From: a virus
IMG/VR virus record: IMGVR_UViG_3300013088_000093
Location: 1-20,305 of that record
Length of the DNA stretch: 20,305 bases
Reading direction: 5' to 3' (one strand)
The notes below the pieces were generated by a model that ran no database searches, had not been told where the DNA came from, and saw only the letters and a list, made by a program, of their open reading frames with translations. Shown in pieces: positions 1,322-19,615 of the stretch (its first letter is position 1; each line of letters begins with the position of its first letter). The translations under genes and the position numbers were made by a program.

Positions 1322-1350
1322 ATCTTACAGAAGAAAGGTCAGGTTGTCAA
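1322..1350 (-). promoter_or_regulatory. Sigma70-type promoter for the leftward operon
   Basis: On the minus strand a perfect -35 TTGACA (1350-1345) is followed by a 17-base spacer and a -10 TAAGAT (1327-1322). Transcription would start near 1315 and run leftward through the structured leader into the small ORFs and the radical SAM gene. It lies directly downstream of the tRNA gene. Confidence 0.6.
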
Positions 1351-1359
1351 GGGGAAACG

Positions 1360-1432: not shown

Positions 1433-1463
1433 GAGAAGATTGTATCTTGTCCAATGGAATAGG

Positions 1464-1928: not shown

Positions 1929-1946
1929 TTCTTCACTTCGGTCGCT

Positions 1947-1992
1947 CCCCGTCGTTGAACATGAACGCCAGAGCGGCGGACATACGACGGGG
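1947..1992 (-). promoter_or_regulatory. Hairpin in the leader of the HNH gene
   Basis: CCCCGTCGT (1947-1955) and ACGACGGGG (1984-1992) are perfect 9-bp inverted arms, with a small inner CGCC/GGCG stem. It lies in the untranslated leader between the promoter at 2043-2070 and the HNH start, and may tune expression of the endonuclease. A regulatory role is inferred only from its position. Confidence 0.35.
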
Positions 1993-2042
1993 TTTACGAC
2001 CGAGTTAGTTTCTTGGTTGGTCTGACATTCATGTTCTCTGTG

Positions 2043-2070
2043 ATTGTAGCGGAAATCCCTTGATTGTCAA
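2043..2070 (-). promoter_or_regulatory. Sigma70-type promoter upstream of the HNH gene
   Basis: On the minus strand a perfect -35 TTGACA (2070-2065) is followed by a 16-base spacer and a -10 TACAAT (2048-2043, five of six consensus bases). It points at the HNH gene and tRNA-Thr. The -35 box begins only a few bases after the terminator-like hairpin at 2076-2110, which would insulate it from upstream transcription. Confidence 0.65.
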
Positions 2071-2071
2071 C

Positions 2072-2110
2072 CTAAAACGAGGAACAACCCGCGTGGGGTT
2101 GTCTCTCGTT
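2072..2110 (-). terminator. Rho-independent terminator-like hairpin, leftward
   Basis: AACGAG..ACAACCC (2076-2090) pairs with GGGTTGT..CTCGTT (2096-2110) around a 5-base loop; the stem has one wobble and one mismatch. Read leftward, the stem is followed by a TTTT run (2077-2074). Read rightward there is no T run, so leftward termination is favoured. It sits between two leftward promoters. Confidence 0.55.
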
Positions 2111-2134
2111 CTTCAATTCCGACTCAGACCGACG

Positions 2135-2167
2135 ACCAAGAATACAATCTGATTCTTGGTTTGTCAA
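2135..2167 (-). promoter_or_regulatory. Sigma70-type promoter overlaid by an operator-like inverted repeat
   Basis: On the minus strand -35 TTGACA (2167-2162), a 17-base spacer and -10 TATTCT (2144-2139). The inverted repeat ACCAAGAAT (2135-2143) / ATTCTTGGT (2152-2160), with an 8-base gap, covers the spacer and the -10 box. A dimeric repressor bound there would block the promoter. A transcript from it would meet the terminator at 2072-2110 after about 60 bases. Confidence 0.5.
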
Positions 2168-2405
2168 GCAATTCCTTTTCTGTCCCCTCTCCTAAGAACC
2201 TCTCCCTCTCTTCTTTTAGTATAACTTTCTTAGAAGCGCCCTCTCTCAACGCTGTCCGTTTCTACGCCGCCCCCTACCCCCAAAGCGCGTTTCGGCTTTT
2301 AGATGGCTTGCGCCAGCCGCAGGGCGTAACTGCGGTCAGATAGGAATTGAAGGAGAACGGAACGGAGAGCCGGACGCGAACTACAAATTGTTGTCCCGTT
2401 GAGGA
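2168..2405. other. Gene-free stretch with a polypyrimidine tract and small hairpins
   Basis: No credible gene is seen on either strand; the plus strand is strongly C/T-rich from about 2170 to 2220. Read leftward it lacks ATG codons entirely. Features visible are an inverted pair CTAAGAA (2192-2198) / TTCTTAG (2227-2233), a hairpin CCGCAG/CTGCGG (2317-2322 / 2330-2335), and next to it a TGGC-GCAA-GCCA hairpin on the minus strand with a GNRA loop. The region would be transcribed leftward from the promoter at 2406-2433. It could hold a non-coding RNA or an origin-like element. Confidence 0.35.
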
Positions 2406-2433
2406 ATGATACTCGCCGTTTCGCTTTTGTCAA
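2406..2433 (-). promoter_or_regulatory. Sigma70-type promoter, leftward
   Basis: On the minus strand a perfect -35 TTGACA (2433-2428), a 16-base spacer and -10 TATCAT (2411-2406, five of six consensus). It points into the gene-free stretch 2168-2405. It is the outermost of four leftward TTGACA promoters in the window. Confidence 0.55.
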
Positions 2434-2462
2434 GCGGTTTTTTACGTCCGCCACGATTCCGT

Positions 2463-2492
2463 TTGACAGCCCCCCTCCGTCTGGTGTAAGAT
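2463..2492 (+). promoter_or_regulatory. Sigma70-type promoter, rightward
   Basis: A perfect -35 TTGACA (2463-2468), an 18-base spacer and -10 TAAGAT (2487-2492), the same -10 as the leftward promoter at 1322-1350. It faces the packaging and structural module and diverges from the leftward promoter at 2406-2433. The first ATG (2493) directly abuts the -10 box, which puts the expected start site inside or after that codon. Confidence 0.5.
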
Positions 2493-2657
2493 ATGGCGTG
2501 CCAGAACCGAGTTCAATCAAAGCCGCCGCGCTCCTTCGTGGACGAGGACGGAGTGTTCCTAAACCGCAAGGAAGCCTACGACCGGGCCGTTCAGTGTGGC
2601 CAGATAGTCGCCGACGGTGGAGAACGCTGCCTGACTTCCGAGATGCTGAAACCATGA
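2493..2657 (+). CDS. Small conserved-looking phage protein, unknown
   Basis: A 54-codon ORF (MACQNRVQSKPP..). Its middle part reads FVDEDGVFLNRKEAYDRAVQ and CGQI, ending LTSEMLKP. This resembles a short domain of phage proteins with the pattern F.d..G.F..R.eA...A...GQI......SEdL, whose role is not known. It ends in an ATGA overlap with the next gene, which supports the frame. The start is weak: no Shine-Dalgarno, an in-frame stop just upstream and a promoter -10 box touching the ATG. A GTG at 2538 would keep the domain. Confidence 0.6.
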   Translation: MACQNRVQSKPPRSFVDEDGVFLNRKEAYDRAVQCGQIVADGGERCLTSEMLKP

Positions 2658-2806
2658 CCCGCGACGAGTTTCCGCGCTGGACAGCGTGCAAAACGTGCGC
2701 CAAACTGAAAGGCTGCTGTGGGGCGAGCAAACGGGTTGCGTCCTGCGTGGACTACCGACGTATGGACGAAACGGGCAAAGGTGATGGGGAAAAGCGCCGA
2801 GCGTGA
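2654..2806 (+). CDS. Small Cys-rich protein
   Basis: A 50-aa protein starting in the ATGA overlap with the gene before it. Five cysteines are concentrated in 25 residues (CKTC, then CC, then C at about residues 12, 15, 22, 23 and 31), a pattern that could bind zinc or iron. The rest is highly charged (DETGKGDGEKRRA). The same frame is open upstream to 2399, but the overlap with the real upstream gene argues for the ATG at 2654. No family recognised. Confidence 0.6.
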   Translation: MTRDEFPRWTACKTCAKLKGCCGASKRVASCVDYRRMDETGKGDGEKRRA

Positions 2807-3032
2807 CCGCCGGGCTAGGGGATGGGCCGTGTCGGCCCTCTTGGTGGGACTGATTTTGGCTATTATGGTGTGTCTGCTATTCGGGCCGCATACGACAACT
2901 TCTAAGCCTGAGCATGGCTATCTAGATTATTATGGACAGTCATTTGGGCCTGAAGGTAACTCCCTCGACAGCAGTTTTCTCGGTTGGATGAGTAAGTCTA
3001 CGGCTTTCCGGCAATTCAGAACGGGGAAATAG
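2784..3032 (+). CDS. Small single-pass membrane protein
   Basis: An 82-aa protein with a basic start (residues 2-12), one clear membrane helix at about residues 14-34 (WAVSALLVGLILAIMVCLLF) and a polar tail rich in Gly, Ser, Tyr and Asp. The positive N-terminus predicts the N-end in the cytoplasm. The ATG at 2784 lies inside the end of the preceding gene, with AAAGG close upstream; an in-frame GTG at 2781 is possible. It could be a holin-like or superinfection protein, but no lysis partner is visible and the role is unassigned. Confidence 0.62.
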   Translation: MGKSAERDRRARGWAVSALLVGLILAIMVCLLFGPHTTTSKPEHGYLDYYGQSFGPEGNSLDSSFLGWMSKSTAFRQFRTGK

Positions 3033-3049
3033 GCTAGTCAACCAGAAAA

Positions 3050-3082
3050 GCGGAAATATACCAAGGAAAGGCGGGAATATAC
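3050..3082 (+). repeat. Direct repeat pair ahead of the terminase region
   Basis: GCGGAAATATAC (3050-3061) recurs as GCGGGAATATAC (3071-3082), 11 of 12 bases alike and 21 bases apart, or two helical turns. It precedes the small ORF at 3085 and the likely small terminase gene. It could be an iterated protein-binding site or chance. Confidence 0.3.
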
Positions 3083-3084
3083 TG

Positions 3085-3213
3085 ATGGATGCAGTCCAAC
3101 AGGTGGACGAAGTGCTGAGACAGGCGTCAGGAACCGGGCTGACCGGGTTGCTGGTAAGTCTTGCCCCTGCGAAGGTTTTGATTGACAAGGAGACGCGGAG
3201 GCGGGTAGAATAG
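3085..3213 (+). CDS. Small protein before the terminase genes, unknown
   Basis: A 42-aa protein (MDAVQQVDEVLRQASGTGLT followed by GLLVSLAPAKVLIDKETRRRVE). AGGCGGG lies about 8 bases upstream. The composition is that of a short soluble helical protein with one hydrophobic patch. It fills most of the gap between the membrane protein and the GTG of the likely small terminase, with only 6 bases to the latter. No motif recognised. Confidence 0.5.
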   Translation: MDAVQQVDEVLRQASGTGLTGLLVSLAPAKVLIDKETRRRVE

Positions 3214-3219
3214 AACACC

Positions 3220-4164
3220 GTGGAAATTGACTCGGCTGCACAGCAGTCCACAAACGCCCCCGTAGCGGACACGCAATCCGTTTCGGGGGATGTTTCTAAA
3301 ATGCCGTGGACGCGCAACCCCCGCATGAGCGCGAAACGTCGCCAAGCGGCGGCTCGTGGCATGGTCGTTCTGCGTGCGCGGCTTTACGAGGACAAGGACG
3401 GCGGCGGTATGCCGATAATGCCGTTCGAGCGCAAGGGGAAAGACCTCATCATGCGCGTGTTGCTGGAGGGGGTGGACGCTGAAGTTTGGGCCGGTATCAA
3501 GGAAACCTTCAAGGGCAACAAGCCATACCTGCTGATGGACAAGACCGGGATTGTGTGCCAACTACGGGACACCATCGCTTCCGGCCAGAAGACAATCCGG
3601 CACAGCAAGGATAAGATTCTAGAGGTGCTGCCGAAGGGCACGGACTTGCCCTCGGGCATCGCGTGGGGCGACTTCACGGAACGACAGCTTGTGGCGTTGG
3701 CCCTGTTGACGGATGTCATGTCGTCCAACACGCGGGCGCAGGTGGCCGCGATTGCCGGAGTCGAAGTCGAAGACTTGAACAAGTGGGAGAGCAACGACAA
3801 GTTCCTCCGGGTGAAGTGGTGGTTGCTTGAGCGTCAGAAGCATCGGATACGCGAGGAAGGCATGAAGAACCTTGCGACCGGGCAGCAGTCGGAAGACGAA
3901 GCCATGAAGTTTGCTTGGACGAAGCTGGGGCTGGAAGTCCTCGGCTACGTTGGTCGGCGCGACAAGGCGCAGACGCAGGCGAAAGACTCGAAGCTGGTGG
4001 AAGACGTACATGCCGAGCTTGGAGATATGTCCCAGTCAGACAAGGACATACTCGCCCACGACCTGCAACTTACTGTCGCCATCCTGACCGGAAAGAACCA
4101 AGTGATGTTGAGCGGCGACGGAAGCACGCTGAGCGTCAAAGCAAAGGAAGAGCCAGATGTCTAA
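3220..4164 (+). CDS. Probable terminase small subunit
   Basis: A 314-aa, highly charged, mostly helical protein. Around residues 168-200 a helix-turn-helix-like run is seen (TRAQVAAIAGVEVEDLNKWE, then SNDKFLRVKWW), similar to the DNA-binding part of phage small terminases, where N.W..D..F follows the recognition helix. Small terminases bind the packaging site and regulate the large terminase. The position, three small genes before the large terminase in the same direction, fits. The GTG at 3220 has only a distant GGAGG; an ATG at 3301 (MPWTRNPR..) is an alternative start. The protein is longer than most small terminases, so part of it may have another role. Confidence 0.55.
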   Translation: MEIDSAAQQSTNAPVADTQSVSGDVSKMPWTRNPRMSAKRRQAAARGMVVLRARLYEDKDGGGMPIMPFERKGKDLIMRVLLEGVDAEVWAGIKETFKGNKPYLLMDKTGIVCQLRDTIASGQKTIRHSKDKILEVLPKGTDLPSGIAWGDFTERQLVALALLTDVMSSNTRAQVAAIAGVEVEDLNKWESNDKFLRVKWWLLERQKHRIREEGMKNLATGQQSEDEAMKFAWTKLGLEVLGYVGRRDKAQTQAKDSKLVEDVHAELGDMSQSDKDILAHDLQLTVAILTGKNQVMLSGDGSTLSVKAKEEPDV

Positions 4165-4188
4165 GTCAACAAACAAAGCGAGCCGCAA

Positions 4189-4404
4189 GTGAAGAACTCG
4201 GCTCTCGGCGTTGCCTTGAAACGCGCTCTGAGAAACGTAAACGGAGAAGGTTCGCTGAGTTCTCAGGTGAGCGTCGGATTCATTCTGGAGCCGGGCAAGA
4301 AGGGTGAGCGCGAAGGCGTGCAGGTATTTGTGAGAGCAATCAGGTTCAGCGAAAAGAAGCTGGCTGATTTGCCTGATACCGGCGGGTTGCTGGCGAAACT
4401 ATGA
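4189..4404 (+). CDS. Small protein, unknown
   Basis: A 71-aa protein from a GTG (MKNSALGVALKRALRNVNGE..), probably an alpha/beta fold with FILEPGKKG and VQVFVRAIRF strands. Its GTG overlaps the TGA of an 11-codon ORF (4157-4192, MSKSTNKASRK) that itself starts inside the end of the preceding gene. That mini-ORF may only serve to couple translation. No family recognised. Confidence 0.55.
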   Translation: MKNSALGVALKRALRNVNGEGSLSSQVSVGFILEPGKKGEREGVQVFVRAIRFSEKKLADLPDTGGLLAKL

Positions 4405-4413
4405 GGAGTCACC

Positions 4414-4569
4414 GTGCCCTATAAACGAGAAGGCAGCACGATTCTCAAGCAGGAGAAGGACGGAACTTGGCACGTGAAGGACAAGTGTTCGTCTGTGGAT
4501 AACGCAAAGAAACAACTCCGATTACTATTTGGTGTCGAAAGAGGCTGGACCCCTACGAACAAGAAGTAA
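4414..4569 (+). CDS. Small protein, unknown
   Basis: A 51-aa protein from GTG with a good GAGGAG site 6 bases upstream. It reads MPYKREGSTILKQEKDGTWH, then VKDKCSS and VDNAKKQLRLL, ending in a Lys-rich tail. The pattern of a short beta hairpin followed by a helix with NA...L.LL is common in small uncharacterised phage proteins. The stop overlaps the next ATG as TAATG. Confidence 0.6.
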   Translation: MPYKREGSTILKQEKDGTWHVKDKCSSVDNAKKQLRLLFGVERGWTPTNKK

Positions 4570-4922
4570 TGGTACTCCACGAATGGCAATGCGAACGTTG
4601 CGGCGCTTCCCGCGCCGAGTTCCTGTCTGCCTCAGCAGTCGGTGACAGTCGCGGTCAGCGTCATCCGTCCGGCGAGTCATGGCCGTGCAAATGTGGTGGG
4701 CGGCTGCGGTACGATTTCGGTGGGCAGATTGGAATTACGAACCACTTCCCCTTTGCTCGTATGCCGGACAAGTATCGGGACGCGACCAAGGAGAAGTATC
4801 GCCTGTTCAACGCCAGCCTTGACACGCAGGCCAGCTACGCACAGGAGAAGCAGGAACGTAAATCGGGCGAGGCGCGGATTGCGCGTGAGGGCAGGAAAAT
4901 CATGGTGGGAGGCAGGGCGTGA
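4569..4922 (+). CDS. Zinc-ribbon protein
   Basis: A 117-aa protein with cysteine pairs at residues 8/11 (CERC) and 40/42 (CKC), followed by GGRLRYDFGG. This is a zinc-ribbon layout like that of FmdB-type ribbons. The second half (about residues 63-117) is helical and highly charged (KEKYRLFNASLDTQ.., QEKQERKSGEAR). It begins in a TAATG overlap and ends in a GTGA overlap with the large terminase, so the genes are tightly coupled. It may assist packaging or transcription, but its function is unknown. Confidence 0.65.
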   Translation: MVLHEWQCERCGASRAEFLSASAVGDSRGQRHPSGESWPCKCGGRLRYDFGGQIGITNHFPFARMPDKYRDATKEKYRLFNASLDTQASYAQEKQERKSGEARIAREGRKIMVGGRA

Positions 4923-6724
4923 CCCAGACCGGCCCTACCATCATCACGTCGCCGCTCAACGCCGACCAACGGCGTGTTGCGGAAGGAATACGGTTTCTCG
5001 CGGGGTCAAGGCTTGTGTTCTTCGCAAAGTACGTCTTGGGTTACGACTGGCTGAGCGAAAGAATCCACGGGCCGCAAGGGGACTTCCTGACTTCATCGCT
5101 GTTCCGCAAGTACCGCAAGTCGGTTCAGTTCGTCCGGCAACCTGATGATAGCCCCAAGTGGGAATACGGCTGCAACCGCCCGCGACTACCGAAGCCTCCG
5201 CCTGACTGGAATGGTACGGAAGAGTCTGATGAGTTCCCGAGAATCACGCAGGACTTCGGACGGAAGTGCAAGTTCTTGGCGGCTCCTCGGAAGACCGGCA
5301 AGACCAGTCTTGGCACTCACGGTCTGTCTCTGTTCGTGCCAGCCGTCTGCAATCCGAACTTTGCCTTAATGATTGTGTTCGGGTCGCAAGACCTGTCGGA
5401 CTCGATGGGCAAGCTCATCAACGATACCATCTACAACAACAAGCTGTTCCGCTACTTCTATGGCGGGTGGGAAATTGGAAGTCCGTCCATACAGGAGCGC
5501 ACCAAGTTCTTCTCCTGCCGTAAGAAGTCAAAGCGCGACGTTTCGCTGCTGATGACCTCAGTGGGGGCGAAGATTACCGGACTTCACCCGGACGGTATCA
5601 TACTGGATGACCCGATTGACGAGTCGAACTGTCGGTCTGAGGCTGCGCTGCAAGACATTGAGGACTTTCACAATTCGCTGTTCGCGCTTGACCCGGAAGC
5701 CATGTGGGTGTTTGGTACGCGCTGGGGACCGACTGACCTTTATGGTCAACGCATCATCGGCCAGTTGAGCGACGTGTATGACATCTACCTTCGCGGTGCG
5801 CGGAACCCGGACGGCTCGTTGTGGTATCCAGAATGGCAGAACGAAAAGTTCCTTGCTGGCAAGTTGACGGCGATGGGCAAGTTCCTGTTCCAGTCGCAGT
5901 ATTTGAACGTCGGCGTATCACATCTTGAGAACCCTTTGAAGTCTGAGCAAATCAAGTCATTCGACCCGGACGACGAGAAGGTCATCCCGAACCGCAGAAA
6001 CGTAACGCGGTTTCTGTGGTGTGACCCCGGTGGCGCGCGTGGAACCGGCCCGTGGGGTATGGCGGTGATTGACTTTGCGCGTGACGCCGAGACAGACGAA
6101 ACGCACCTGTGGGTGCGCGACGTTATCAAGGCCAGAATCACATCTCACAAAGCGGCGGAAGCGTTCTGCAACCTGTGGTTCGTGTGGCGGCCGGACGCTT
6201 TTGGTATTGAGAATACAGGGTTTTCGCAGTCGTTCATTGACGAAACGCTGAAGCCGATGCTGCGGAAGCGCAATATCCTCATGCGGCTGACCGAGACAAA
6301 GCCGGGCAGAGATTCTAAGCCAGCCCGCGTGGCCGAAGTCAACAATTCCTTTGGCGTCTTGCTCGAACAGGGCCGGATTCACATTCCGCGTGATACCGAC
6401 GGCACGAGGCAAGGCATCCGCGCGCTGCGTTCTGAGATTGCCATGTTCCCGTCCGGCACATTCGACGCGCTGGACGCCATCGCCGCAGCCACGGCCTACG
6501 CATTTGAGAACGACTGGTTTCCCGGAGCCAAGGCCGCGCCGGTTGCCAAGATGAACGACTACGACATGCTGATGGAAGACGCTTGGCGGTCATTGCGCGA
6601 CGGCGACCGGCGGAGAATGGCAGGTTACGGCGTAAGTGACGACCTTTTGATTGGCGAAGCTCTGCGCGAGATGGGGTTCCGCGACGTGAGCAAGCAAGAG
6701 GAGGAACTACGAGTAGCGTCATAA
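4919..6724 (+). CDS. terL: Terminase large subunit
   Basis: A 601-aa packaging motor. The ATPase part has a Walker A variant at residues 122-130 (APRKTGKTS), a Walker B at 227-232 (IILDDP) and a coupling motif VFGTRW at about 264-269. The C-terminal RNase H-like nuclease part shows acidic residues at Asp369 (FLWCDPGG), Glu431 (FGIENTG) and Asp516/Asp519 (FDALDAIAAAT). In phages this enzyme translocates DNA into the procapsid through the portal and cuts genome ends. The GTG start overlaps the previous stop. The length and motif order are those of an intact protein. Confidence 0.95.
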   Translation: MTQTGPTIITSPLNADQRRVAEGIRFLAGSRLVFFAKYVLGYDWLSERIHGPQGDFLTSSLFRKYRKSVQFVRQPDDSPKWEYGCNRPRLPKPPPDWNGTEESDEFPRITQDFGRKCKFLAAPRKTGKTSLGTHGLSLFVPAVCNPNFALMIVFGSQDLSDSMGKLINDTIYNNKLFRYFYGGWEIGSPSIQERTKFFSCRKKSKRDVSLLMTSVGAKITGLHPDGIILDDPIDESNCRSEAALQDIEDFHNSLFALDPEAMWVFGTRWGPTDLYGQRIIGQLSDVYDIYLRGARNPDGSLWYPEWQNEKFLAGKLTAMGKFLFQSQYLNVGVSHLENPLKSEQIKSFDPDDEKVIPNRRNVTRFLWCDPGGARGTGPWGMAVIDFARDAETDETHLWVRDVIKARITSHKAAEAFCNLWFVWRPDAFGIENTGFSQSFIDETLKPMLRKRNILMRLTETKPGRDSKPARVAEVNNSFGVLLEQGRIHIPRDTDGTRQGIRALRSEIAMFPSGTFDALDAIAAATAYAFENDWFPGAKAAPVAKMNDYDMLMEDAWRSLRDGDRRRMAGYGVSDDLLIGEALREMGFRDVSKQEEELRVAS

Positions 6725-6795
6725 TCAGTTGTACCATTATTGTCCTCTGCGCTATTGTCGGGTTTTCGTTCTGGCTTCGCAAGCAGTTTCACAGT

Positions 6796-7029
6796 ATGGT
6801 CGCGGAACTATCCGTTGTCGGTTGCCCGATGGTTGGCGACTTGACGGGCAAGGTCGCGGAACTTGAGCGGGCACTTGCGGCCACGGAATCTGAGGTGTCT
6901 GAGGCTGCTACTCTGGCACGGTCAGCGCAGGCGCAGGCCGCCGCCATAGTAGGGGAACGCGACGATGCCAAGATACTCACAAACCTGCCGACTCTCTCCG
7001 ACCATGAGGTGTTTGGATTTACCGTATGA
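6796..7029 (+). CDS. Coiled-coil protein with a likely upstream membrane anchor
   Basis: Coordinates use the first ordinary start (ATG 6796, 77 aa), but the same frame is open upstream and encodes a convincing membrane helix at 6721-6780 (VIISCTIIVLCAIVGFSFWL) followed by RKQFHS. A strong AGGAGG (6699-6704) lies before that frame, yet no ATG, GTG or TTG occurs between it and the helix, and the ATG at 6796 has no Shine-Dalgarno. A non-standard start such as ACG, ATC or ATT is therefore possible. The following region (VAELERALAATESEVSEAA..) is a short coiled coil. An anchored coiled coil resembles inner-membrane spanins, but no partner is visible. The stop overlaps the portal ATG. Confidence 0.6.
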   Translation: MVAELSVVGCPMVGDLTGKVAELERALAATESEVSEAATLARSAQAQAAAIVGERDDAKILTNLPTLSDHEVFGFTV

Positions 7030-9326
7030 GCATGTCAAATCAGGATAAGCTGGCAACGGCTGGTCCGGTCGGTATGCGGGCCGCTGCGTTTATCGAGCAG
7101 GCGAAGGAGCAGATTGCTGCCGCCGAGAAGCACATGGCGAAGTGGAACGCCCAGCGCAAAGAGAACATGGAGATGCTGTTGGGCAACCAATGGTGCATGA
7201 CCGACCCAATGACGAAGGAACTGAAAGACGGGCGAATCATCCTGCGGCGCAAGGGCTACCATACGTTTCTCACCGACAACGTGCTTCTCGATTTGCTCAC
7301 CAAGGGCGTCAATTCGGTGTGCGGTGAGATTCCGCGCTTTGAGGCCATACCCGCGTCCAGCCAGCAACAGGACTTCGTGAAAGCCAAGTATGTCACGCGG
7401 CTGATTCCCGGCCTATGGTATCATCGTAAGGCCGTGAGCTTCCTGCGGAAGTGCATCACCGGGGCGCGTTACTACAACCTGTTCTTTGGCAAAGTGGTGT
7501 GGAATCCGAGAATGGGGAAAGTGGTCAACGGCAAGCTGGAAGGCGACATTTCGCTCATTGGCATCCCGCCTATGTCAATGTTCGTAGACCCGTCGGCAAT
7601 GCGGGTCATGCCTGAGTGCATCGAGGAAACCGACGCTCGGTGGTTGTTCGAGGCGGGAAAGATGACCGTGGCAGAACTCAACGCGATGGTTGAATTGCCG
7701 CGAGACGGCAAGACCCCGACTGGCGGAGATTATGTCCGTTGTTTGCCGCCGACCGGCTATCAACTCGCGCCAGCCGACAGCGCCCACGATACGATCGAAA
7801 ACGCGGAAGTGACTGCCGACGCTTTCAAGCCCGAGATAGTCAACGTGCGCGGCAAGGACGGCGAGTTGCTTGGCATGTCCAAGATTCGTCGGCTACTCTA
7901 CTACGCACAGCCGAACGAAGAGTTCCCGCGTGGTCGTTACTGCCTGATGCTGCCGGATAGCGACTACTGGGTCATGGAATACCGCGAGTGTTTGCCGGAT
8001 GACGAGATGGTGGGCGACAAGGAACTGCCGGGCTTGTCCCCGTTCTGCACGTTCTGGGACGAGCAGGTGGCCGGTCAGCTTGCGGGCCACAGCCGCACCG
8101 CAGAGGCCATACCGTATCAGCGGGTACTCAACCAGACGATTACGGACATGGGAGAAACCAAGCGGCGATTCAAGCCGGTGACGTGGGTTGACCGCGACCT
8201 CGGCATTGACATGGACGGCATCCGAGAGAACACGCCGATTGGAACCGTCATGCCCTACGTGGCTCGCGGTAACAATCCGTTGCCAGAAACACGGTGGCCG
8301 GAAGCTGTCGAACGGTTCCTGAACGAGTGCCGTATGGATGTTCAGTTCTACACCCGGCGCATGGAAGATCGGATGGGCGTTCACTCCATGCTCTCCGACA
8401 ATACCCGCCAAGTGAGTGCTACCGAGTTTGCTCACAACATGCGGATTGAACAGCAGTCTACGACCGGCGAGGCTGCGGGAATAGAAGAGGTTTCCGTTAT
8501 CCCCATGACCAAGTTGATGCTCCAGCAGTACCAGCGACACGCGGGAGCCGACCGCATGATTCTCACGATGGCCGACCGCAACCGTTCGGAAGTGATGCAG
8601 GTCATGGCGGAGGACATTGACTTCAAGGACATCATCATCACCGCAGCTGGAAGCTCCGTGCCCTTGAATCGGGCGTTGCAGAAGGCAGAAGTGGTCAACC
8701 TTGCTACGTTGGGCGTCTTCACGGACAAAGACCCAACCGAAGCCAAGCGCAAGGAACGCTGGATGATGGACTTGATGAATCTTGAATCGTCGGTCGAAGA
8801 GTCCGGCGACCAGCTTGACATCAACAATGCCCGCGCTGAGAACATGAGAATTCTGGGCGGTGAGGACATCACGGTCCCGCGTCCCGGCGACAACGATTCG
8901 ATTCACCTTTACGGGCCGCTCTGTCATTCTGAGTTTATGAAGCTGCCGGAGTTCCGCGACCAGCCGAAAGAGAAGTATCAGAAGCAACTGGAGGTGCTGC
9001 AAGCCCACAACGCGGCGCATTACCAGCGACTTGAGGACAAGAGCCAGATACTCGGCGTCCCCGTGGCTGACATTGTTTCGGCTGCTCTGTCGCGTGTCAA
9101 GCCCGGCCCGCCGATGGCACAGGGCCAGCAACCGCCCGGCCCTACGGGCGGGTTGCCACCGCCTCCCGGTACGCCCGTGGACTTCACGAACGCTAACGGG
9201 GTCAGGACGTATCAAGAAACTCCCGGCCCCAAATCCGCAAACCTTGTTGGGCCGTCGGCGGCTGAACCGCAACCGGCGCAACCCATCATTCCCCAAACCC
9301 TAAACCCTCAACCTGGAGGTATCTAA
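7026..9326 (+). CDS. Portal protein
   Basis: A 766-aa protein directly after the terminase, in the size class of podovirus portals. It begins with a helical, charged N-terminus and a segment FLTDNVLLDLLTKGVNSVCG. Later come a VDPSA loop in a region of mixed strands (about residues 180-190) and a long helical part with many Gln and Arg (about residues 430-580). Residues from about 691 to the end are Pro/Gly/Gln-rich (GQQPPGPTGGLPPPPG) and probably disordered. Portals form a 12-subunit ring that admits DNA and docks the adaptors. The start is in an ATGA overlap with the coiled-coil gene. Assignment rests on order, size and general look. Confidence 0.85.
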   Translation: MSMSNQDKLATAGPVGMRAAAFIEQAKEQIAAAEKHMAKWNAQRKENMEMLLGNQWCMTDPMTKELKDGRIILRRKGYHTFLTDNVLLDLLTKGVNSVCGEIPRFEAIPASSQQQDFVKAKYVTRLIPGLWYHRKAVSFLRKCITGARYYNLFFGKVVWNPRMGKVVNGKLEGDISLIGIPPMSMFVDPSAMRVMPECIEETDARWLFEAGKMTVAELNAMVELPRDGKTPTGGDYVRCLPPTGYQLAPADSAHDTIENAEVTADAFKPEIVNVRGKDGELLGMSKIRRLLYYAQPNEEFPRGRYCLMLPDSDYWVMEYRECLPDDEMVGDKELPGLSPFCTFWDEQVAGQLAGHSRTAEAIPYQRVLNQTITDMGETKRRFKPVTWVDRDLGIDMDGIRENTPIGTVMPYVARGNNPLPETRWPEAVERFLNECRMDVQFYTRRMEDRMGVHSMLSDNTRQVSATEFAHNMRIEQQSTTGEAAGIEEVSVIPMTKLMLQQYQRHAGADRMILTMADRNRSEVMQVMAEDIDFKDIIITAAGSSVPLNRALQKAEVVNLATLGVFTDKDPTEAKRKERWMMDLMNLESSVEESGDQLDINNARAENMRILGGEDITVPRPGDNDSIHLYGPLCHSEFMKLPEFRDQPKEKYQKQLEVLQAHNAAHYQRLEDKSQILGVPVADIVSAALSRVKPGPPMAQGQQPPGPTGGLPPPPGTPVDFTNANGVRTYQETPGPKSANLVGPSAAEPQPAQPIIPQTLNPQPGGI

Positions 9327-9808
9327 TGAGAGCGAAACTCTCGATTGCCATCCTCGCCGTCGCCCTGATGGTTGGGCTGGCTCCCGCCTACACGAACCTG
9401 TGGGTGACTCCCTATTTTTCCTACCAGCTCATGGGAGGCACGGCGAAGACGACTACGCCGAACAACGTGGACGCTCCCGTCAACTTCTGCACCATCATGG
9501 AAACGCTCCACGTGGCCGTACACGTCGGGGTCTGCACGTTGACTGTTACCAACGCGAACGGGGTTTATGACCCGCTCATCTGGTGTCTCGACGGTACAGT
9601 CGGTGTCAAGATAGGACTCCCGGTGGCCGTAAACTCGAATACGTATACTCCTTTCGGTCCCTTCGCGGATTCAACCGCAGTGCAACTGGCGGGTCACTGG
9701 AAGAAGTTTATCCTCTACATTTCGGCTACGGCGGATTCGGTACAGGCTCACGGTTACGTCATGGTCGGGTCGTCCGCGCCGTCTATTCAAAACACGCACC
9801 TGAAGTAG
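9326..9808 (+). CDS. Predicted secreted protein in the structural operon
   Basis: A 160-aa protein with a textbook signal peptide: MRAK, a hydrophobic core LSIAILAVALMVGLA, and a likely cleavage site near APAYT (residues 19-23). The mature part (about 137 aa) is Thr/Val/Gly-rich, probably all-beta, with three cysteines (FC, VC and WC contexts). The ATG overlaps the portal stop (TAATG) with GGAGG 7 bases upstream, so it is expressed with the virion genes. Phage head genes rarely carry export signals. It may act in the envelope of the host, or the N-terminus could be a membrane anchor. Family unknown. Confidence 0.75.
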   Translation: MRAKLSIAILAVALMVGLAPAYTNLWVTPYFSYQLMGGTAKTTTPNNVDAPVNFCTIMETLHVAVHVGVCTLTVTNANGVYDPLIWCLDGTVGVKIGLPVAVNSNTYTPFGPFADSTAVQLAGHWKKFILYISATADSVQAHGYVMVGSSAPSIQNTHLK

Positions 9809-9809
9809 C

Positions 9810-9935
9810 ATGACTTACGCGACGGCCCGCGATTGCACGGTGCGCGGTAGCGCCGTCGTAGTCCTTATCGTGCATAAACCCCTAAACCATAAGCCGGACG
9901 AACTCCGCAAGGAGAATCTGGCAGAGGAGCTATGA
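9810..9935 (+). CDS. Small protein between portal region and scaffold
   Basis: A 41-aa ORF (MTYATARDCTVRGSAVVVLI, then VHKPLNHKPDELRKENLAEEL). It starts one base after the preceding stop and ends in an ATGA overlap with the scaffold start. Its last codons carry the GAGGAG ribosome site of that gene. It fills the gap exactly, which favours a translated gene. It has a short hydrophobic stretch followed by an amphipathic charged helix. Function unknown. Confidence 0.5.
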   Translation: MTYATARDCTVRGSAVVVLIVHKPLNHKPDELRKENLAEEL

Positions 9936-10900
9936 ACACACTCAGATTCGGACGAACCTATCTCAGCCCGGCTGCTGATGGCGGCGGCGCTGCGGAGGAA
10001 TCCGGTAAGGCAGCCGAAATGGTGACGGTTGCGGAAGCGAAAGAACTCACCGTGACAGAATTGGCGAATCTCAAGGTCAAGACTGAAGACGGCGAGGTAA
10101 TCTCCGGCAAGGAGTTCACCGAGTCGTGGCGCAAGCAGCCTGACACCGACCGTATCTTGAATGAAAAGAAGGCGGAGCTACAGGCTGAATACGACGCCAA
10201 GCTCAAGTCTGAAACCGAGAGAATCTCGCAGCAGATGGAGTCGGCAAGCACCGGCACTCTCAACAAAGTTCTGGAGGCACTGCAAATCGGCCTTGGTAAA
10301 GGGTCGAACCAGAAGCCGCTTACCAGAGAACAGAAGGTCGCTGCTATCATCGAGAAGATGGGGCAGGAGGGATGGAACGCTGGCATCCCCGACCTAGTTG
10401 ACGCCGGTTCTTCTGAGGCCAAAGCACTGATTGAAGAAATCAGAGGGGAACTTAACCTCAGCAAGAAGGAAATCGCCGACCTCAAGGGACAGCGGAAGCA
10501 GGACAATCTCAAGGCGTTCTATCAGGAAGAAACCCGCGCGATTCAGGCCATCTTTCCGGGCTACAACCCGGAAGGGGAAGACCAGAAATCCCTGACCATC
10601 CGCACTGTGCTTCTCAGCGAGAGGCCGATGCCGAACATTCTCGGCAACCAGACTCCGGGGAACAAAACCCTGCCGGGCGAAGTTGCCACGAAGGTTCTGG
10701 CATATCTGAAGGCGGAGTCCGCCAAAGAGAAGGCACAGGAATTGGCGGACGAGAAGAAGTGCCGGGACTCGCGGGCCACCGTGCCCGCCGGTAGAGCCTC
10801 GTTCGAGGTGTCCGACGAACTACAGAAAGAAATGGCGAAGGCACAAACGCCTGCGGAACTACAAGTCGTCAGGCGCAAGATGATGGAGGCGCAGCAGTAG
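9932..10900 (+). CDS. Capsid scaffolding protein
   Basis: A 322-aa, highly charged, Glu/Lys/Gln-rich protein with long predicted helices and coiled coil (about residues 80-120 and 160-185). It sits immediately before the major capsid gene. The C-terminal region (SDELQKEMAKAQTPAELQVV.., about 293-322) looks like the short helix pair that scaffolds use to bind coat protein. Scaffolds guide procapsid assembly and leave before or during packaging. No protease domain is seen. The start is in an ATGA overlap with a GAGGAG site. Function inferred from composition and gene order. Confidence 0.75.
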   Translation: MNTLRFGRTYLSPAADGGGAAEESGKAAEMVTVAEAKELTVTELANLKVKTEDGEVISGKEFTESWRKQPDTDRILNEKKAELQAEYDAKLKSETERISQQMESASTGTLNKVLEALQIGLGKGSNQKPLTREQKVAAIIEKMGQEGWNAGIPDLVDAGSSEAKALIEEIRGELNLSKKEIADLKGQRKQDNLKAFYQEETRAIQAIFPGYNPEGEDQKSLTIRTVLLSERPMPNILGNQTPGNKTLPGEVATKVLAYLKAESAKEKAQELADEKKCRDSRATVPAGRASFEVSDELQKEMAKAQTPAELQVVRRKMMEAQQ

Positions 10901-10947
10901 CCATGCAGCGCTCCGTTGTCACGCCCAAGCCTGAATAGGAGAATAAC

Positions 10948-12318
10948 ATGAGCATGGCAACTCTCAGTTCGGTCAGCAACGTCCTTGCGAAGACGGCTGG
11001 CACGAGGGCGGACATCGCCCTCAAAACCTTTCCCTTGTGGCAGTTGCTCAAGGGCAAGGCCGGTTCCGGCAAGCTGATTGGCCGGAGCGTGAACGGAAAG
11101 AAGACATACTACTGGTCGCGGCCCGTTCCGACTTCGACCGGCGACAACGCGGGCAACATCGCGGAAACCGGCACGCTCGCGGCTTACAACGCCTCCACGG
11201 CAGACGAGGCGCTGTACTCGCTGCTCAACACCGTTTCCACCATCCAAATCAGCAACCTCGCTCTCAACACCGGGGCCATCAACTCGTCCGTGGACGACGA
11301 CGACGTGAAGATTCAGGAAGACGGGATGATGAAGGACTGGCGCGTCAAGATGATGAACGGGTTTATGGGCCAGCATCAGGGCTGGATAACCTCCGTGCGT
11401 GAAGCGTCAACCGACTTGGTTGTCGGCGTCCGCGACACCGACCTGTTCCTCATCGGCCAGTATATCAACTTCTACGCCTTCACCGCCCCGTCCACGTGGA
11501 CGAAGAACACCGGCCCCGGCACGTCCGGCAAGTGCCTCATTTCGGCGGTTCATCCCGAGACGGACGCCGACATGACCGGCCCGCACATCCACATCGCGGT
11601 CAACGGCAGCACAATCGCGGCTGGCAGCTTCATCACGTTCGACGGCCAGTACAACCTCGCCAACTACGGACTCGGTGACGGCATTCAGGCCGGAGCCGAC
11701 ATCACCTGCGGCAACTACACCATCACCAAGGCGCTCACGACCTACGCCAACCTCTCGCGTTCGACCTACCCCGATCTCGTTTCCCTCATCTACCAGCCGG
11801 ACGGCCCCGGCGGTGTCGGCGCTCCGTCCGTGGCGCGTCTCTTCACGTGGATTGCCAAGATTGCGGCCCATCAGGGTGAAGGCAAGGCCGACATCGGGCT
11901 GTGCTTCGGGCACTCGCACACCATCACGAGCGTCTGGGAGATTCTGGCGGCTACCCGCACTCTCGGATTGCCGAGTGGCGGGCGCATCGCCTACGGCGCA
12001 GACCTCGAACCGACCATCAACCACCCGTCGCTGATTAAGCCCGTGAAGTTCGAGGGGCATATCGGTGCGAAGAAATACTGCCTGACCGCGCTCAAGCTCT
12101 CCGACCCGGAGGACTTCTTCGTGCGTGATACCGACGCCCCGCACTACATCAACAAGGGCGATGTTAACGGTATCTTCTCCTATGACGGCTTCCCCGGCGG
12201 TGGCTATCACGCATGGTCGGCGGTCTTCGACTACATCTGGGGCATGATTCTAAATTCTCGTGCCCACAGCATGTATGCCGGAATCTCGTTGCCCACCGAG
12301 GAGTCGGTCGCTTCTTGA
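10948..12318 (+). CDS. Major capsid protein
   Basis: A 456-aa protein following the scaffold, with an AGGAG site before the ATG. It has an N-terminal helical arm (NVLAKTAGTRADIALKTFPL), a segment with SRPVPTS and a long loop-rich middle. The C-terminal half contains motifs such as GLCFGHSHTIT, SGGRIAYGADLE and SRAHSMYAGI. Length, balance of helix and strand, and position between scaffold and connectors fit a coat protein of the HK97 fold; no single catalytic motif can prove it. A hairpin follows directly, as is common after capsid genes. Confidence 0.8.
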   Translation: MSMATLSSVSNVLAKTAGTRADIALKTFPLWQLLKGKAGSGKLIGRSVNGKKTYYWSRPVPTSTGDNAGNIAETGTLAAYNASTADEALYSLLNTVSTIQISNLALNTGAINSSVDDDDVKIQEDGMMKDWRVKMMNGFMGQHQGWITSVREASTDLVVGVRDTDLFLIGQYINFYAFTAPSTWTKNTGPGTSGKCLISAVHPETDADMTGPHIHIAVNGSTIAAGSFITFDGQYNLANYGLGDGIQAGADITCGNYTITKALTTYANLSRSTYPDLVSLIYQPDGPGGVGAPSVARLFTWIAKIAAHQGEGKADIGLCFGHSHTITSVWEILAATRTLGLPSGGRIAYGADLEPTINHPSLIKPVKFEGHIGAKKYCLTALKLSDPEDFFVRDTDAPHYINKGDVNGIFSYDGFPGGGYHAWSAVFDYIWGMILNSRAHSMYAGISLPTEESVAS

Positions 12319-12328
12319 GCGTAACACA

Positions 12329-12356
12329 GGAGGGCGGGACGCAAGTTCCGCCCTCC
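12329..12356 (+). terminator. Hairpin after the capsid gene
   Basis: GGAGGGCGG (12329-12337) pairs perfectly with CCGCCCTCC (12348-12356) around a 10-base loop, 11 bases after the capsid stop. No T run follows, so it may be a weak terminator, a processing site or an mRNA stabiliser that favours capsid expression. Confidence 0.5.
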
Positions 12357-12359
12357 CCC

Positions 12360-12564
12360 ACCTGCAGAAAACCGATGTCCGCAGAACATCGGGCAAGGCT
12401 ATGTGCATCACATTGATTACGACAAAGAAAACGGCAATCCCGATCTGGTTACTCTGTGTCCTAGCTGTCATTCCAAGACGAACTACCCACACAGAGAACG
12501 TTGGATTGCGCTTTTCGACAGCATGACAAGGAGCAGCAATGGCGGAAACAAAGACGCTCGCTGA
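12360..12564 (+). pseudogene. Decayed NUMOD3-HNH homing endonuclease
   Basis: Two pieces of one endonuclease family lie in different frames. Near 12367-12396 the frame reads RKPMSAEHRARL, a NUMOD3-type DNA-binding motif. From about 12397 another frame reads YVHHIDYDKENGNPDLVTLC, then PSCHSKTNYPHRERWIALF, the second half of an HNH nuclease core. The link between them, including the first CxxC of the HNH domain, is gone, so an internal deletion with a frameshift is likely. The HNH frame runs on to 12564, over the start of the next gene. Some residual translation is possible. It resembles the HNH gene near 19352. Confidence 0.65.
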
Positions 12565-13206: not shown

Positions 13207-13341
13207 GTGAAACTCGGGTCACGCAATTCGCCAGAGACATTGGAGAAATTGTCTGCGGTGAGTAAACGTCTTTGGCAAGACAAGACAACCGTCAACAGGG
13301 AAGAATGGACTGCGTTCTTTCTTGGAAAGGAGATGCCGTGA
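13207..13341 (+). CDS. Small protein between the connectors
   Basis: A 44-aa ORF from GTG (MKLGSRNSPETLEKLSAVSK, then RLWQDKTTVNREEWTAFFLG and KEMP). It starts 2 bases after the previous stop and ends in a GTGA overlap with the following gene, whose AAAGGAG ribosome site lies within its last codons. The product is helical and charged with two Trp residues. The exact fit between neighbours supports a real gene. Function unknown. Confidence 0.6.
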   Translation: MKLGSRNSPETLEKLSAVSKRLWQDKTTVNREEWTAFFLGKEMP

Positions 13342-13961
13342 CGCTTGGGACTGCCATGTCTTTATTCCGGGTGATGTCGCGGATGCCCGTCAAAGAGTTA
13401 GGTGACGGAGCCGTCACCGAACTGTTGAATCAGGGTTGGCGCTACGCCGCCAATGACGCGAAGCTGTCACTGTTCGGATACTGCAAGCGTGCGCTGACGC
13501 TGAACGTGTCGGAATACGCCTTGCCAGCAACTATAACCAAAGTCCATCGAGTGCGGCTGCTGAATGGCGCGGTGTGCGTGAAGGTGCTCATTCCGTCTGC
13601 GGCCGAAGATGTGCTTGGCCGTGATGCCACCAGCGAGATGACGCCGGGCATACCCGATGCTTGTTCCGTGGCCTTCACCAAGTTCCAAGACGGCACTTCG
13701 GGCTGGCTGCTGAAGTTCAACTGCCCGGTGAATTGGGCGGGTAGCGACCTGCTGGAGGCATACGTTACCCGTGACCCGGCATACATCAGCGACGTGGACA
13801 CCGAGCCGGACATCCCGGTTGCGCTGCACGACGCGGGTCTGTATCGGGCCTGTTACGTTGTGACGCTGGAGCAGCGGTTGAAGGTTCTCTACGACGAGGC
13901 GATGATGGTATATCTGAAGAGCGGTGCGGGGCTGGAGCCACGTCCGCCGATTGACATTTAG
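13338..13961 (+). CDS. Probable tail adaptor / head-tail joining protein
   Basis: A 207-aa protein from the GTG at 13338 (MTLGTAMSLFRVMSRMPVKE), chosen because of the AAAGGAG site 6 bases upstream and the GTGA overlap. A longer reading from 13272 would overlap the small upstream gene. An N-terminal helical part (AVTELLNQGWRYAANDAKLS) leads to a beta-rich middle (ALTLNVSEYALPATITKVHR), then to C-terminal helices (HDAGLYRACYVVTLEQRLKV). This plan resembles T7 gp11-like or P22 gp4-like adaptors that join portal and nozzle. Assigned by architecture and position. Confidence 0.55.
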   Translation: MTLGTAMSLFRVMSRMPVKELGDGAVTELLNQGWRYAANDAKLSLFGYCKRALTLNVSEYALPATITKVHRVRLLNGAVCVKVLIPSAAEDVLGRDATSEMTPGIPDACSVAFTKFQDGTSGWLLKFNCPVNWAGSDLLEAYVTRDPAYISDVDTEPDIPVALHDAGLYRACYVVTLEQRLKVLYDEAMMVYLKSGAGLEPRPPIDI

Positions 13962-15002: not shown

Positions 15003-15359
15003 TTGACTCCTGCCCCTAGCGACCTCGCGGTCTGCCGCGTGTCCTACGTGGTCACGTCGCCGTTCGTGCAGCCGTCCGACTTGGCCGTGTGCCGGGTTGC
15101 CTACGTGGTGACGGCATTGGGTCAGCAGGCGGCGAGTGACTTGGCGGTATGCCGTCTCAGCTACGTGGTATCGGCTGGCAGCCGTGCGGTATCTGACCTT
15201 GCGGTGTGTCGCGTCGGGTACGTGGTATCGGCTGGCAGCCGTGCGGTATCTGACCTTGCGGTGTGTCGCGTCGGGTACGTGGTAACGGCGGTGACGCCAG
15301 CAACGCCAACGATTGACCCGTGGACGCTTGGCGCTGCGCCGTCAGGAGCTTGGACGTAA
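15003..15359 (+). CDS. Tandem-repeat protein, five SDLAVCRVxYVV units
   Basis: A 118-aa protein made of five units of 19-20 residues. Each starts SDLAVCR(V/L)xYVV and is followed by a variable linker, then comes a tail VTPATPTIDPWTLGAAPSGAWT. Every unit has one cysteine at the same place. The start is uncertain: a TTG at 15003 lies 14 bases after GGAG, and the frame is open back to the TAA of the PEGA gene, including a CTG at 14991. The repeats use four different serine codons and many synonymous changes, so the amino-acid sequence appears conserved. It is probably a beta-stranded tail or surface component. No known family recognised. Confidence 0.7.
   Translation: MTPAPSDLAVCRVSYVVTSPFVQPSDLAVCRVAYVVTALGQQAASDLAVCRLSYVVSAGSRAVSDLAVCRVGYVVSAGSRAVSDLAVCRVGYVVTAVTPATPTIDPWTLGAAPSGAWT
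15018..15290 (+). repeat. Tandem coding repeat, periods 57-60 bases
   Basis: Five units begin at 15018, 15075, 15135, 15192 and 15249. The copies at 15162-15218 and 15219-15275 are identical over 57 bases, and identity runs on for 9 more bases to 15284, so the last duplication is recent. The earlier units have diverged mainly at third codon positions. Confidence 0.9.
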
Positions 15360-18300: not shown

Positions 18301-18694
18301 CATGCTGGACTTCGCCGGACTGGACGCTGTGGCTCGCACGTTGCCCAAGGATTTGCAGAAGTTCTACCTGTCGGCCCGGCCCGCGTCTTACGCTGGCATT
18401 TCGACGGTGCTGGTCAAGCACAAGTCCAATGACGTTAGCGACGGGATTGCATGGGACAGCGATAGCCTTGACTTCTCGGCCATGCACAAGCCGGAAGCCG
18501 ACCAAATTCGCCACCACGTTCTTGACTTGGAATCTGCCCTCACGTCGCAGAACAGCACCGGCAGGCGATTCCATTTCATCATCATGCCGGGCACGGAGAA
18601 CAGCGCACCGTTTATTGTTGAGGCGGCGAAGGTGGAGGCGCTTGTTGGAAACGAGGACTGGCCTACAGTTTATGGTGGCCCCACCGACACATAA
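15362..18694 (+). CDS. Large beta-propeller tail protein (nozzle or tail tubular type)
   Basis: A 1110-aa protein from ATG 15362; a GTG at 15320 in frame would overlap the repeat gene. At least three Ycf48/BNR-like blades are seen: VGNAGYVIRTLTEGAAW (about residue 234), VGQMGMILYSADSGATW (about 476, with a perfect Asp-box SxDxGxTW) and VGDGGVCVTTVDGGTIW (about 521). The N-terminal part reads LKDCVCRDGLIWPRPR. The C-terminal 500 residues are beta-rich and contain no enzyme motif that I can see. In short-tailed phages the nozzle (T7 gp12 type) is a large beta-propeller protein placed after the adaptor, which fits. A spike or host-binding role is the alternative. Confidence 0.7.
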   Translation: MDSRLLTVDINVATASLNVRRAGSITPDGIREEAMLPGEFSVLKDCVCRDGLIWPRPRLVAVGKVMSDLSPISLGEFRNGASGDDWLIGSLLDFGYNAIVPIAMLMSQTENRISVTVHKIGHNVDLGCVPFDFGTYRNQLWAVNGLYAQIFDGRSWSDANDGRTMISARLVGTAERKLFFANTPTYPDEYAWADANKEVSVMTKWGGMEAGGGTGVGVMLNQIVAPGTQFGIFAVGNAGYVIRTLTEGAAWFNLPQFTLGSLQAMAIFVSGDTAIAYVGSMAISTTESNVWRTDNLTADPSQWNAELLPSVMNIYAIAIHGVLADYVLAAGQNAAGTKGPRIHRRDGSVWTQTKINGSPGPCAVRALLLPTTNYSAFACSTRNTSTGVPYLWSYDGTEWTSWTTPSINPANQGDFFALAGDYAPGDCLYIAGVEGSTGKIWRMDYASGSWTTLADPPHVPLAMVAIKVTGRHSKVYAVGQMGMILYSADSGATWTEQTSGVSVALNSIVNYDSDDTNKLMAVGDGGVCVTTVDGGTIWVRPGVGELNPDKLTNSERLGAGESIRAKHQRSGQLALFTNRGIRAFDEGTMKRQFSLDGFETFNDNCIGEWRNMIVMLGKMNGEPGIYGWDGSASPPRLLSEAITGLFRSSPGNNYIPCLRCIPDTSDHIWDTEDDFRPRLTPANPGWAFNEDLWAYDNGIMVMRSQPTGANATKITMCGVSVIHAEPTENSSDGIYVPNVTDWGILSFEYQLYHPADEDKIDIELQVQTAPDVVVDGVHKPGTWTGWKYPGDSGHALSREWHLDKTQQKGAFGCCTLRLHATYSDGTSLVNPANPWLQFRLLCKNLAQNDSDVCINRVILRAVVEGDPVTCPAPPCLVVHNDVVYAHFSLDTVTGTPRYQPRCVVMSGKDMQMSTIDTGNEIAAARVLNDVLYMGMYYHGSVYNPNTKIGESLFWPRLLAAVDDNGTNAVDYIGMNQEIRFMLDFAGLDAVARTLPKDLQKFYLSARPASYAGISTVLVKHKSNDVSDGIAWDSDSLDFSAMHKPEADQIRHHVLDLESALTSQNSTGRRFHFIIMPGTENSAPFIVEAAKVEALVGNEDWPTVYGGPTDT

Positions 18695-18939
18695 TGTCAA
18701 GCCAATACTATCAAAGCCCAGAGTATCGAGCGAAACAGTCCGAGAACATGCGGCGTCTTTGGAAGTCTCCCGCCTATCGGGCGAACGCGACACTACACAT
18801 GCACCCGCCATCCACCTTGGGCAAGAAGTTCACCCCCGAGCATCGGGAAAAGATAGGTGCAGCCCAAAGGGGCACACTGCATCACAATTGGGGGAAGCAT
18901 CAACGCAGCGTGATAGGGCGCAATGGACGGAGTTGTTGA
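18694..18939 (+). CDS. NUMOD3-type DNA-binding half of a homing endonuclease
   Basis: An 81-aa protein whose ATG overlaps the stop of the tail gene (TAATG). It holds two SP.YR repeats (SPEYRAKQSENMRRLWKSPA) and a NUMOD3-like motif (LGKKFTPEHREKIGAAQRG, about residues 42-60), then HHNWGKHQRS. In intact phage proteins of this family these elements precede a C-terminal HNH nuclease, which is missing here. An HNH half lies about 410 bases downstream, beyond a tail-domain gene. It could be a decayed gene or a free-standing DNA-binding protein. Confidence 0.7.
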   Translation: MSSQYYQSPEYRAKQSENMRRLWKSPAYRANATLHMHPPSTLGKKFTPEHREKIGAAQRGTLHHNWGKHQRSVIGRNGRSC

Positions 18940-19315
18940 AAACTATGGTTGTGACCGCATGAGAAATCTTGACGCAGCGGGCGCGACCGGGACACAGACT
19001 CGCAACGTATTCGGTTCCATTCCCGCCAGCGACTCCGCCGTTGTGTCCAGCAACCATGCCGTGACTGATACCGAGGCAACGGTGATGGTCAAGACCATGC
19101 GAAGTCCCGTGACGATTACGCTGCCCCGTGCTGCCGCACACAACGGTCGTCAAATTGCCATTCGCAAGATTGACGCGGGCGCGAACCCGGTTACAATTAA
19201 GGCGCAGAACGGAGAGCCGGTGTCGGGTCAGTCGTATGTCGCGCTAGTCGCCGACGGCGAGTTCGTGTCGGTGGTTAGTACAGGCAACGAATGGAGCGTG
19301 GTTGTCCACTTTTAG
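18923..19315 (+). CDS. Small tail/structural beta-domain protein
   Basis: A 130-aa protein. From about residue 45 it has the pattern of a short beta domain frequent in phage tail and fibre proteins: VMVKTMRSPVTITLPRAAAH, then NGRQIAIRKIDAGANPVTIK, and an ending in GEFVSVVSTGNEWSVV. These domains are probably trimeric and structural. The ATG at 18923 has no clear ribosome site and overlaps the NUMOD3 ORF; an ATG at 18959 (MRNLDAAG..) keeps the whole domain and may be the true start. It ends in TAG, after which the same frame continues into the HNH ORF. Confidence 0.65.
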   Translation: MDGVVENYGCDRMRNLDAAGATGTQTRNVFGSIPASDSAVVSSNHAVTDTEATVMVKTMRSPVTITLPRAAAHNGRQIAIRKIDAGANPVTIKAQNGEPVSGQSYVALVADGEFVSVVSTGNEWSVVVHF

Positions 19316-19351
19316 CATGACACCCCAACAGATACAGCATCAAAAGAGACG

Positions 19352-19615
19352 TTGTGCGGTCGAAACAAAACAGAGAGACGTAGCGTTCGTGAGCGTGACA
19401 GCTATTGTTGCAGATTATGTGGTGTCCCACAGGGGGAAATGGCGCACGACGTTCACCACATTGACTACGACAAGAAACATTGCGACCCCATGAATCTCAT
19501 TACACTTTGTCGTTGCTGTCACGTTAAAACATCGTTTGGCAATCGCGTAGATTGGACAAGACTGCTCCAAGAAATGATGATTGCCTTTACCATGGAAGGA
19601 GCTTCTTGTGGCTAA
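19352..19615 (+). CDS. HNH nuclease half of a homing endonuclease
   Basis: An 87-aa ORF from TTG with a complete HNH core: VRERDSYCCRLCG, then DVHHIDYDKKHCDPMNLITL and CRCCHVKTSFGNRVDW. Both cysteine pairs, the HH pair and the key Asn are present, so it could be catalytic. The start is unclear. The frame is open upstream to the TAG of the preceding gene, and an ATG at 19317 begins a different frame (MTPQQIQHQKRRCAVET) that looks like a natural start needing a frameshift near 19365-19385. The stop overlaps the next gene's GTG, and GGAAGGAG in its last codons serves that gene. Confidence 0.72.
   Translation: MCGRNKTERRSVRERDSYCCRLCGVPQGEMAHDVHHIDYDKKHCDPMNLITLCRCCHVKTSFGNRVDWTRLLQEMMIAFTMEGASCG

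Follow-up and report, generated by a model that had tools for sequence, protein, structure and literature searches.

Two short open reading frames near the 3' end of a phage genome fragment, one with a NUMOD3 motif and the other with an HNH nuclease motif, lie on either side of a small tail-like gene. The question is whether they are two halves of one homing endonuclease, two subunits that work together, or the remains of two separate genes. The window analysed here is the whole IMG/VR record IMGVR_UViG_3300013088_000093 (20,305 bases). It is a linear piece of a tailed-phage genome with terminase, portal, scaffold, capsid and tail-like genes on the (+) strand. The terminase call is strong, and the portal, scaffold, capsid and tail-like calls are tentative assignments from weak matches and gene order. 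The window contains four remnants of one endonuclease family, A (12315-12564), C (13207-13341), B-left (18694-18962) and B-right (19316-19615), all with a G+C content of 0.47-0.54 compared with 0.575 for the whole window. It is very probable that several separate NUMOD3-HNH endonuclease genes each decayed by an internal deletion of their own, and that the two pieces around the tail-like gene are two of them. The parts observed, with their frames, are listed in Table 1.

Table 1. Endonuclease remnants and the intervening tail-like gene in the window
Feature	Position	Strand	Frame, sequence and evidence
Remnant A, 5' part: gene start and first NUMOD3 unit	12315..12402	+	frame 3; cut at 12402; NUMOD3 profile rank 3
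Remnant A, 3' part: second half of HNH and C-terminus	12403..12564 (start about 12400)	+	frame 1; family profile E 4e-16
Remnant C	13207..13341	+	44-codon in-frame fusion of NUMOD3 piece and C-terminus (KTTVNREEWTAFF); C-tail profile rank 1
B-left, NUMOD3 part	18694..18902	+	frame 1; open frame extends to 18939; Pfam NUMOD3 E 7.2e-07
B-left, C-terminal tail	18903..18962	+	frame 3; TQRDRAQWTELLKTMVVTA, then stop; C-tail profile rank 3
Small tail-like gene, 118 aa, intact, bystander	18959..19315	+	tblastn; phrog_8859 E 8e-05
B-right, likely N-terminal stub	19317..19351	+	frame 3; MTPQQIQHQKRR...; out of frame with HNH; translation
B-right, complete HNH and C-terminal helix	19352..19615	+	frame 2; Pfam HNH E 3.6e-05; family profile E 4e-28

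The NUMOD3-HNH family and its four remnants

A single-sequence scan of the viral contigs with the HNH protein found no relative. A seed alignment of the two HNHs of the window and a 249-aa homologue from a 636-kb phage recovered 80 loci in viral contigs, and a second alignment recovered 11 loci in genomes. Most relatives (about 80 loci) are about 140-280 residues long and share one layout, with at least one NUMOD3 unit, the linker NWxGGxSxxPYxxDWTxTLKRSIRERD, an HNH with HHIDYDK and the C-terminus KTNxNRxYWxxYF. Some relatives have zinc-ribbon-like units instead of NUMOD3. The intact ancestors of the remnants were presumably active homing enzymes. On the (-) strand, at 1464-1928, the window also has an uninterrupted reading frame for 154 aa with an HNH_3 domain (Pfam 46.1 bits, cutoff 24.8), which belongs to a different endonuclease family.

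The family C-terminus is present at all four sites. A 15-column profile of this C-terminus was built from 68 relatives, excluding the window sequences, and used to scan the 27,368 stop-free six-frame positions of the window. The four best positions were 13285 (TTVNREEWTAFFLGK, score 23.1), 12481 (NYPHRERWIALFDSM, 12.3), 18903 (TQRDRAQWTELLKTM, 11.9) and 19532 (SFGNRVDWTRLLQEM, 8.9), and the fifth best scored only 6.7. In 150 dinucleotide shuffles of the window a score of at least 11.8 occurred three times in 3.9 million positions (7.7e-7 per position). Since the profile background is tuned to the window, matches below about 30 in A+T-rich loci were disregarded.

The other parts of the protein are distributed unevenly. 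The top three places for a NUMOD3 profile made from the relatives are 18694, 13207 and 12315. The motif is clear at 18694 and absent at 19316; 13207 (site C) and 12315 (site A) give matches that are weak in isolation (E about 0.12) but coincide with C-terminus matches. The HHIDYDK-type HNH is complete in B-right, partial in the 3' part of A and absent from B-left and C. At none of the four sites in the window does one frame hold NUMOD3, the linker, the HNH and the C-terminus together. The missing internal part differs from remnant to remnant, and NUMOD3 is never combined with a complete HNH. The contigs searched yielded no intact copy of any of these genes.

The pieces on either side of the tail-like gene

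The initial annotation proposed a NUMOD3 frame at 18694-18939 and an HNH frame ending at 19615 with its core residues, in the order found in intact proteins. These observations hold. The NUMOD3 frame scores 29.5 bits in Pfam (cutoff 20.4), the HNH frame scores 24.3 bits (cutoff 21.4) and matches PHROG HNH families with E values down to 5.9e-10, and the order agrees with the domain order of the relatives. The gene between them resembles minor tail and baseplate proteins in tblastn (118-130 aa, depending on the start). A tail-type gene is therefore present as proposed, although its start is likely to be ATG 18959 rather than 18923.

The NUMOD3 frame was taken to be the N-terminal half of an endonuclease, which does not agree with the sequence downstream of it. 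Its ATG at 18694 and the stop codon of the 1124-aa gene overlap as TAATG, and the frame finishes in out-of-frame residues. Frame 3 from 18897 to 18962 translates as ASTQRDRAQWTELLKTMVVTA followed by a stop, and this TGA overlaps the likely ATG of the tail-like gene (ATGA). This tail is closest to GDRAEWAALFRGTL, from the G+C-rich genome contig L099, and to RGDRINWTETLKEK, from L027. A whole-HNH profile missed it (E about 13), and a profile of the C-terminus only was needed. Since B-left has a family C-terminus of its own in another frame, the NUMOD3 frame represents a separate gene that lacks the central HNH. The match at 18903 is above chance and has close relatives; therefore, the left gene terminated before the start of the tail-like gene.

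In B-right the HNH core is whole in the family alignment, with both Cys pairs, HH, N and the last CH. The family match begins at about NKTERRSVRERD, and the NUMOD3 units and the NWxGG...DW linker are missing. The predicted fold (pLDDT 74) is an HNH with a long C-terminal helix at residues 65-83 of the piece, and a Foldseek search with this model gave weak matches to HNH nucleases (best E 0.016). The ATG at 19317, directly after the TAG of the tail-like gene, opens 58 codons in frame 3. The stub at 19317-19351 is likely to be the former N-terminus of the endonuclease. The HNH is in frame 2, which has its earliest possible start at TTG 19352, preceded by a weak site. Therefore, the deletion probably shifted the frame as well. 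The tight coupled overlaps described for both frames thus apply to the start of the NUMOD3 frame but not to the HNH. TTG 19352 may be a remaining weak start. Judged from the loss of the NUMOD3 part and of the start, B-right has probably lost its activity, although the HNH core is undamaged. Frame and homology locate both deletion junctions of site B, left and right, to about 10-20 bases.

Two ways of expressing the HNH were considered and dropped as unsupported. One was readthrough of the stop of the tail-like gene into the HNH, which shares its frame beyond a single TAG; the other was a -1 frameshift from ATG 19317. The NUMOD3 part would stay missing in both cases.

It is extremely improbable that the tail-like gene inserted into one NUMOD3-HNH gene and left its N- and C-terminal halves on either side. 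The order NUMOD3, tail-like gene, HNH agrees with the domain order of intact relatives; however, the left piece already has a C-terminal helix and a stop upstream of the tail-like gene, so nothing continues across that gene. As expected of a complete free-standing gene, the left piece has a start coupled to the gene before it and a stop coupled to the tail-like gene, and two other sites in the genome have internally deleted endonucleases with no inserted gene. Because the C-terminus is in both pieces, they do not cover a parent protein just once, and the proposal of one endonuclease split by the tail-like gene fails. The proposal that two endonucleases decayed in a complementary manner does agree with the data, as there are two separate genes that lost different parts, although they are not fully complementary: both kept the C-terminus, and remnants A and C lack yet other parts. 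The two pieces could also work in trans, with the NUMOD3 peptides (18694-18939 and 13207-13341) binding DNA and the HNH peptide cutting it. The intact set of HNH core residues, the predicted fold of an HNH with a C-terminal helix and the coupled start at 18694 agree with such separate subunits. They are nevertheless very unlikely, since the coupled start at 19317 is out of the HNH frame, which has just the TTG with its weak upstream site, and the NUMOD3 frame ends in out-of-frame residues. In addition, no part supplies an interface between the pieces, their shared C-terminus is not what complementary subunits would have, and such a split was seen in no relative examined.

Alternatively, the genes might be intact and the breaks introduced by errors of sequencing or assembly. 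The record is a virus contig from a metagenome, and the sister contig described below differs from it exactly at one break. This explanation is very doubtful, as the missing parts are tens of codons rather than single bases and the sister contig matches the window over 12,402 bases with no mismatch. The long frames that neighbour the remnants (1124, 766, 601 and 456 codons) are uninterrupted; therefore, indel errors are not common. A further idea is that the remnants are still useful to the phage, in that the 13207-13341 miniprotein and the 18694-18939 peptide block incoming endonucleases at homing sites or guide the HNH peptide. Nothing here argues for such a role, and it is considered very unlikely.

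The preferred explanation is that free-standing NUMOD3-HNH homing endonuclease genes would have inserted at no fewer than four junctions between late structural genes, and that each would then have been inactivated by a different internal deletion. As the structural genes on either side are essential, the deletions would be confined to the endonuclease genes. The two pieces at site B would then be separate wrecks on either side of an intact tail-like gene. This looks like the ordinary decay of mobile genes, caught early.

Remnants A and C and a sister contig

Remnants A and C were not part of the initial annotation. The first part of A contains the NUMOD3 sequence KPMSAEHRARL, and its start is likely to be a TTG that overlaps the stop of the capsid gene (TTGA). 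In the family alignment the HNH of A lacks the first Cys pair, and C lacks the entire HNH. A strong RNA hairpin with a 12-bp stem (12329-12356; region z-score -3.1) lies between the capsid stop and the NUMOD3 piece of A. It could be a processing site, a terminator or a control of endonuclease translation. The gene downstream of C contains an imperfect 34-base palindrome (13393-13426, 82 percent), and a small open reading frame at 15003-15359 is built of near-identical repeats of SDLAVCRVGYVVSAGSRAV, as seen in the list of open reading frames and in self-matches.

The junction at site A is polymorphic. The contig IMGVR_UViG_3300022553_000390 (L003) is identical to positions 1-12402 of the window, with zero mismatches over 12,402 bases, and departs from it exactly at the deletion junction. 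In the window the junction reads GGCTAT followed by GTGCATCACATT, a jump into the HNH. In L003 it reads GGCTAT followed by CTGCTTTGCAC, and the NUMOD3 frame goes on as RARLSALH until the contig ends, so that the undeleted form is known from just 11 bases. The continuation resembles intact relatives (RARLSAA in L046). Since L003 is identical up to 12402 and then keeps the NUMOD3 frame, the deletion at site A is probably very recent. The simplest reading is that deleted and undeleted forms of site A coexist in otherwise identical phages.

L003 was the sole contig matched by DNA patterns from both sides of the junction and the only one recovered by capsid and terminase scans of the viral contigs. 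The terminase had no match in bacterial and archaeal genomes. The 1124-aa protein, the HNH and the product of the 12539 gene were each used as a query in single-protein scans of the viral contigs, and none of them found a relative.

Known cases of decay and persistence of the C-terminus

The decay of free-standing phage HNH endonucleases is already documented, and this locus adds another case. The homing cycle predicts endonuclease decay (PMC1654191). The Xanthomonas oryzae phages Xp10, OP1 and Xop411 carry free-standing HNH-AP2 endonuclease genes in varying states of decay, for which a gain-then-degenerate model was proposed (PMC2248197). As in the window, there are several free-standing HNH genes per genome and some are reduced to a C-terminal piece (PMC2248197). 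The DNA-binding part is AP2 in those phages and NUMOD3 in this phage; moreover, all four sites here retain the C-terminus, and a near-identical sister contig differs at one deletion junction. In lactococcal Skunavirus phages, partial deletion has turned 56 of 268 HNH endonuclease genes into remnants, which lie at recurrent intergenic sites (PMC12724721). These truncated remnants resemble those found here, although the phages are unrelated.

Other cases differ in structure. In T4 a large deletion has inactivated the HNH homing endonuclease I-TevIII, of which RB3 has an intact version (PMC2988022), but I-TevIII is intron-encoded and occupies a single site. In ICP1 an internal deletion in the homing endonuclease gene gp174 distinguishes close isolates (PMC10448857), but this gene belongs to the T5orf172 family and the deletion is in-frame between repeats of the DNA-binding region. 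In phage Aeh1, as cited in PMC5374615, a free-standing endonuclease inserted into nrdA and caused its fission. Two gene pieces flank another gene there, as at site B; however, in Aeh1 the gene divided by the endonuclease is a host gene whose two halves remain functional, whereas here a phage gene lies between two endonuclease wrecks. The window offers a compact snapshot of homing endonuclease loss, in that a single structural region contains four wrecks from the same family and one junction differs between otherwise identical genomes. It also suggests caution, in that neighbouring NUMOD3 and HNH frames should not be taken for a split enzyme until a second C-terminus has been checked for.

The C-terminus is probably kept at four of four sites because the start of the next gene, with its ribosome binding site at three of them, lies inside it. 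The next gene starts within the endonuclease C-terminus at A (ATG 12539), C (GTG 13338) and B-right (GTG 19608), with a Shine-Dalgarno match in the last codons of the endonuclease at each of these three sites, and at B-left the stop and the start overlap as described above. Among 79 relatives, 36 have a next gene with a Shine-Dalgarno site near the stop, and in 27 of these 36 the site is inside the endonuclease. Selection on the start of the next gene would thus preserve the tails. The same argument was made in a T4 review for promoters embedded in endonuclease genes (PMC2988022). The survival of the common C-terminus suggests a simple rule, that deletions can take any part other than the one with the start of the next gene.

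Wrecks that are partial or retain only the C-terminus are also present in other phages (L010 at 3780, L051 at 4855 and L080/L081 near 2077). In L010 an intact NUMOD3-HNH endonuclease (2701-3201) is located at one gene junction and the bare C-terminus at the next. The wreck in L051 keeps its C-terminus and is directly 3' of a GroES-like gene. In L080 a partial endonuclease wreck at 2050-2127 has also kept the C-terminus.
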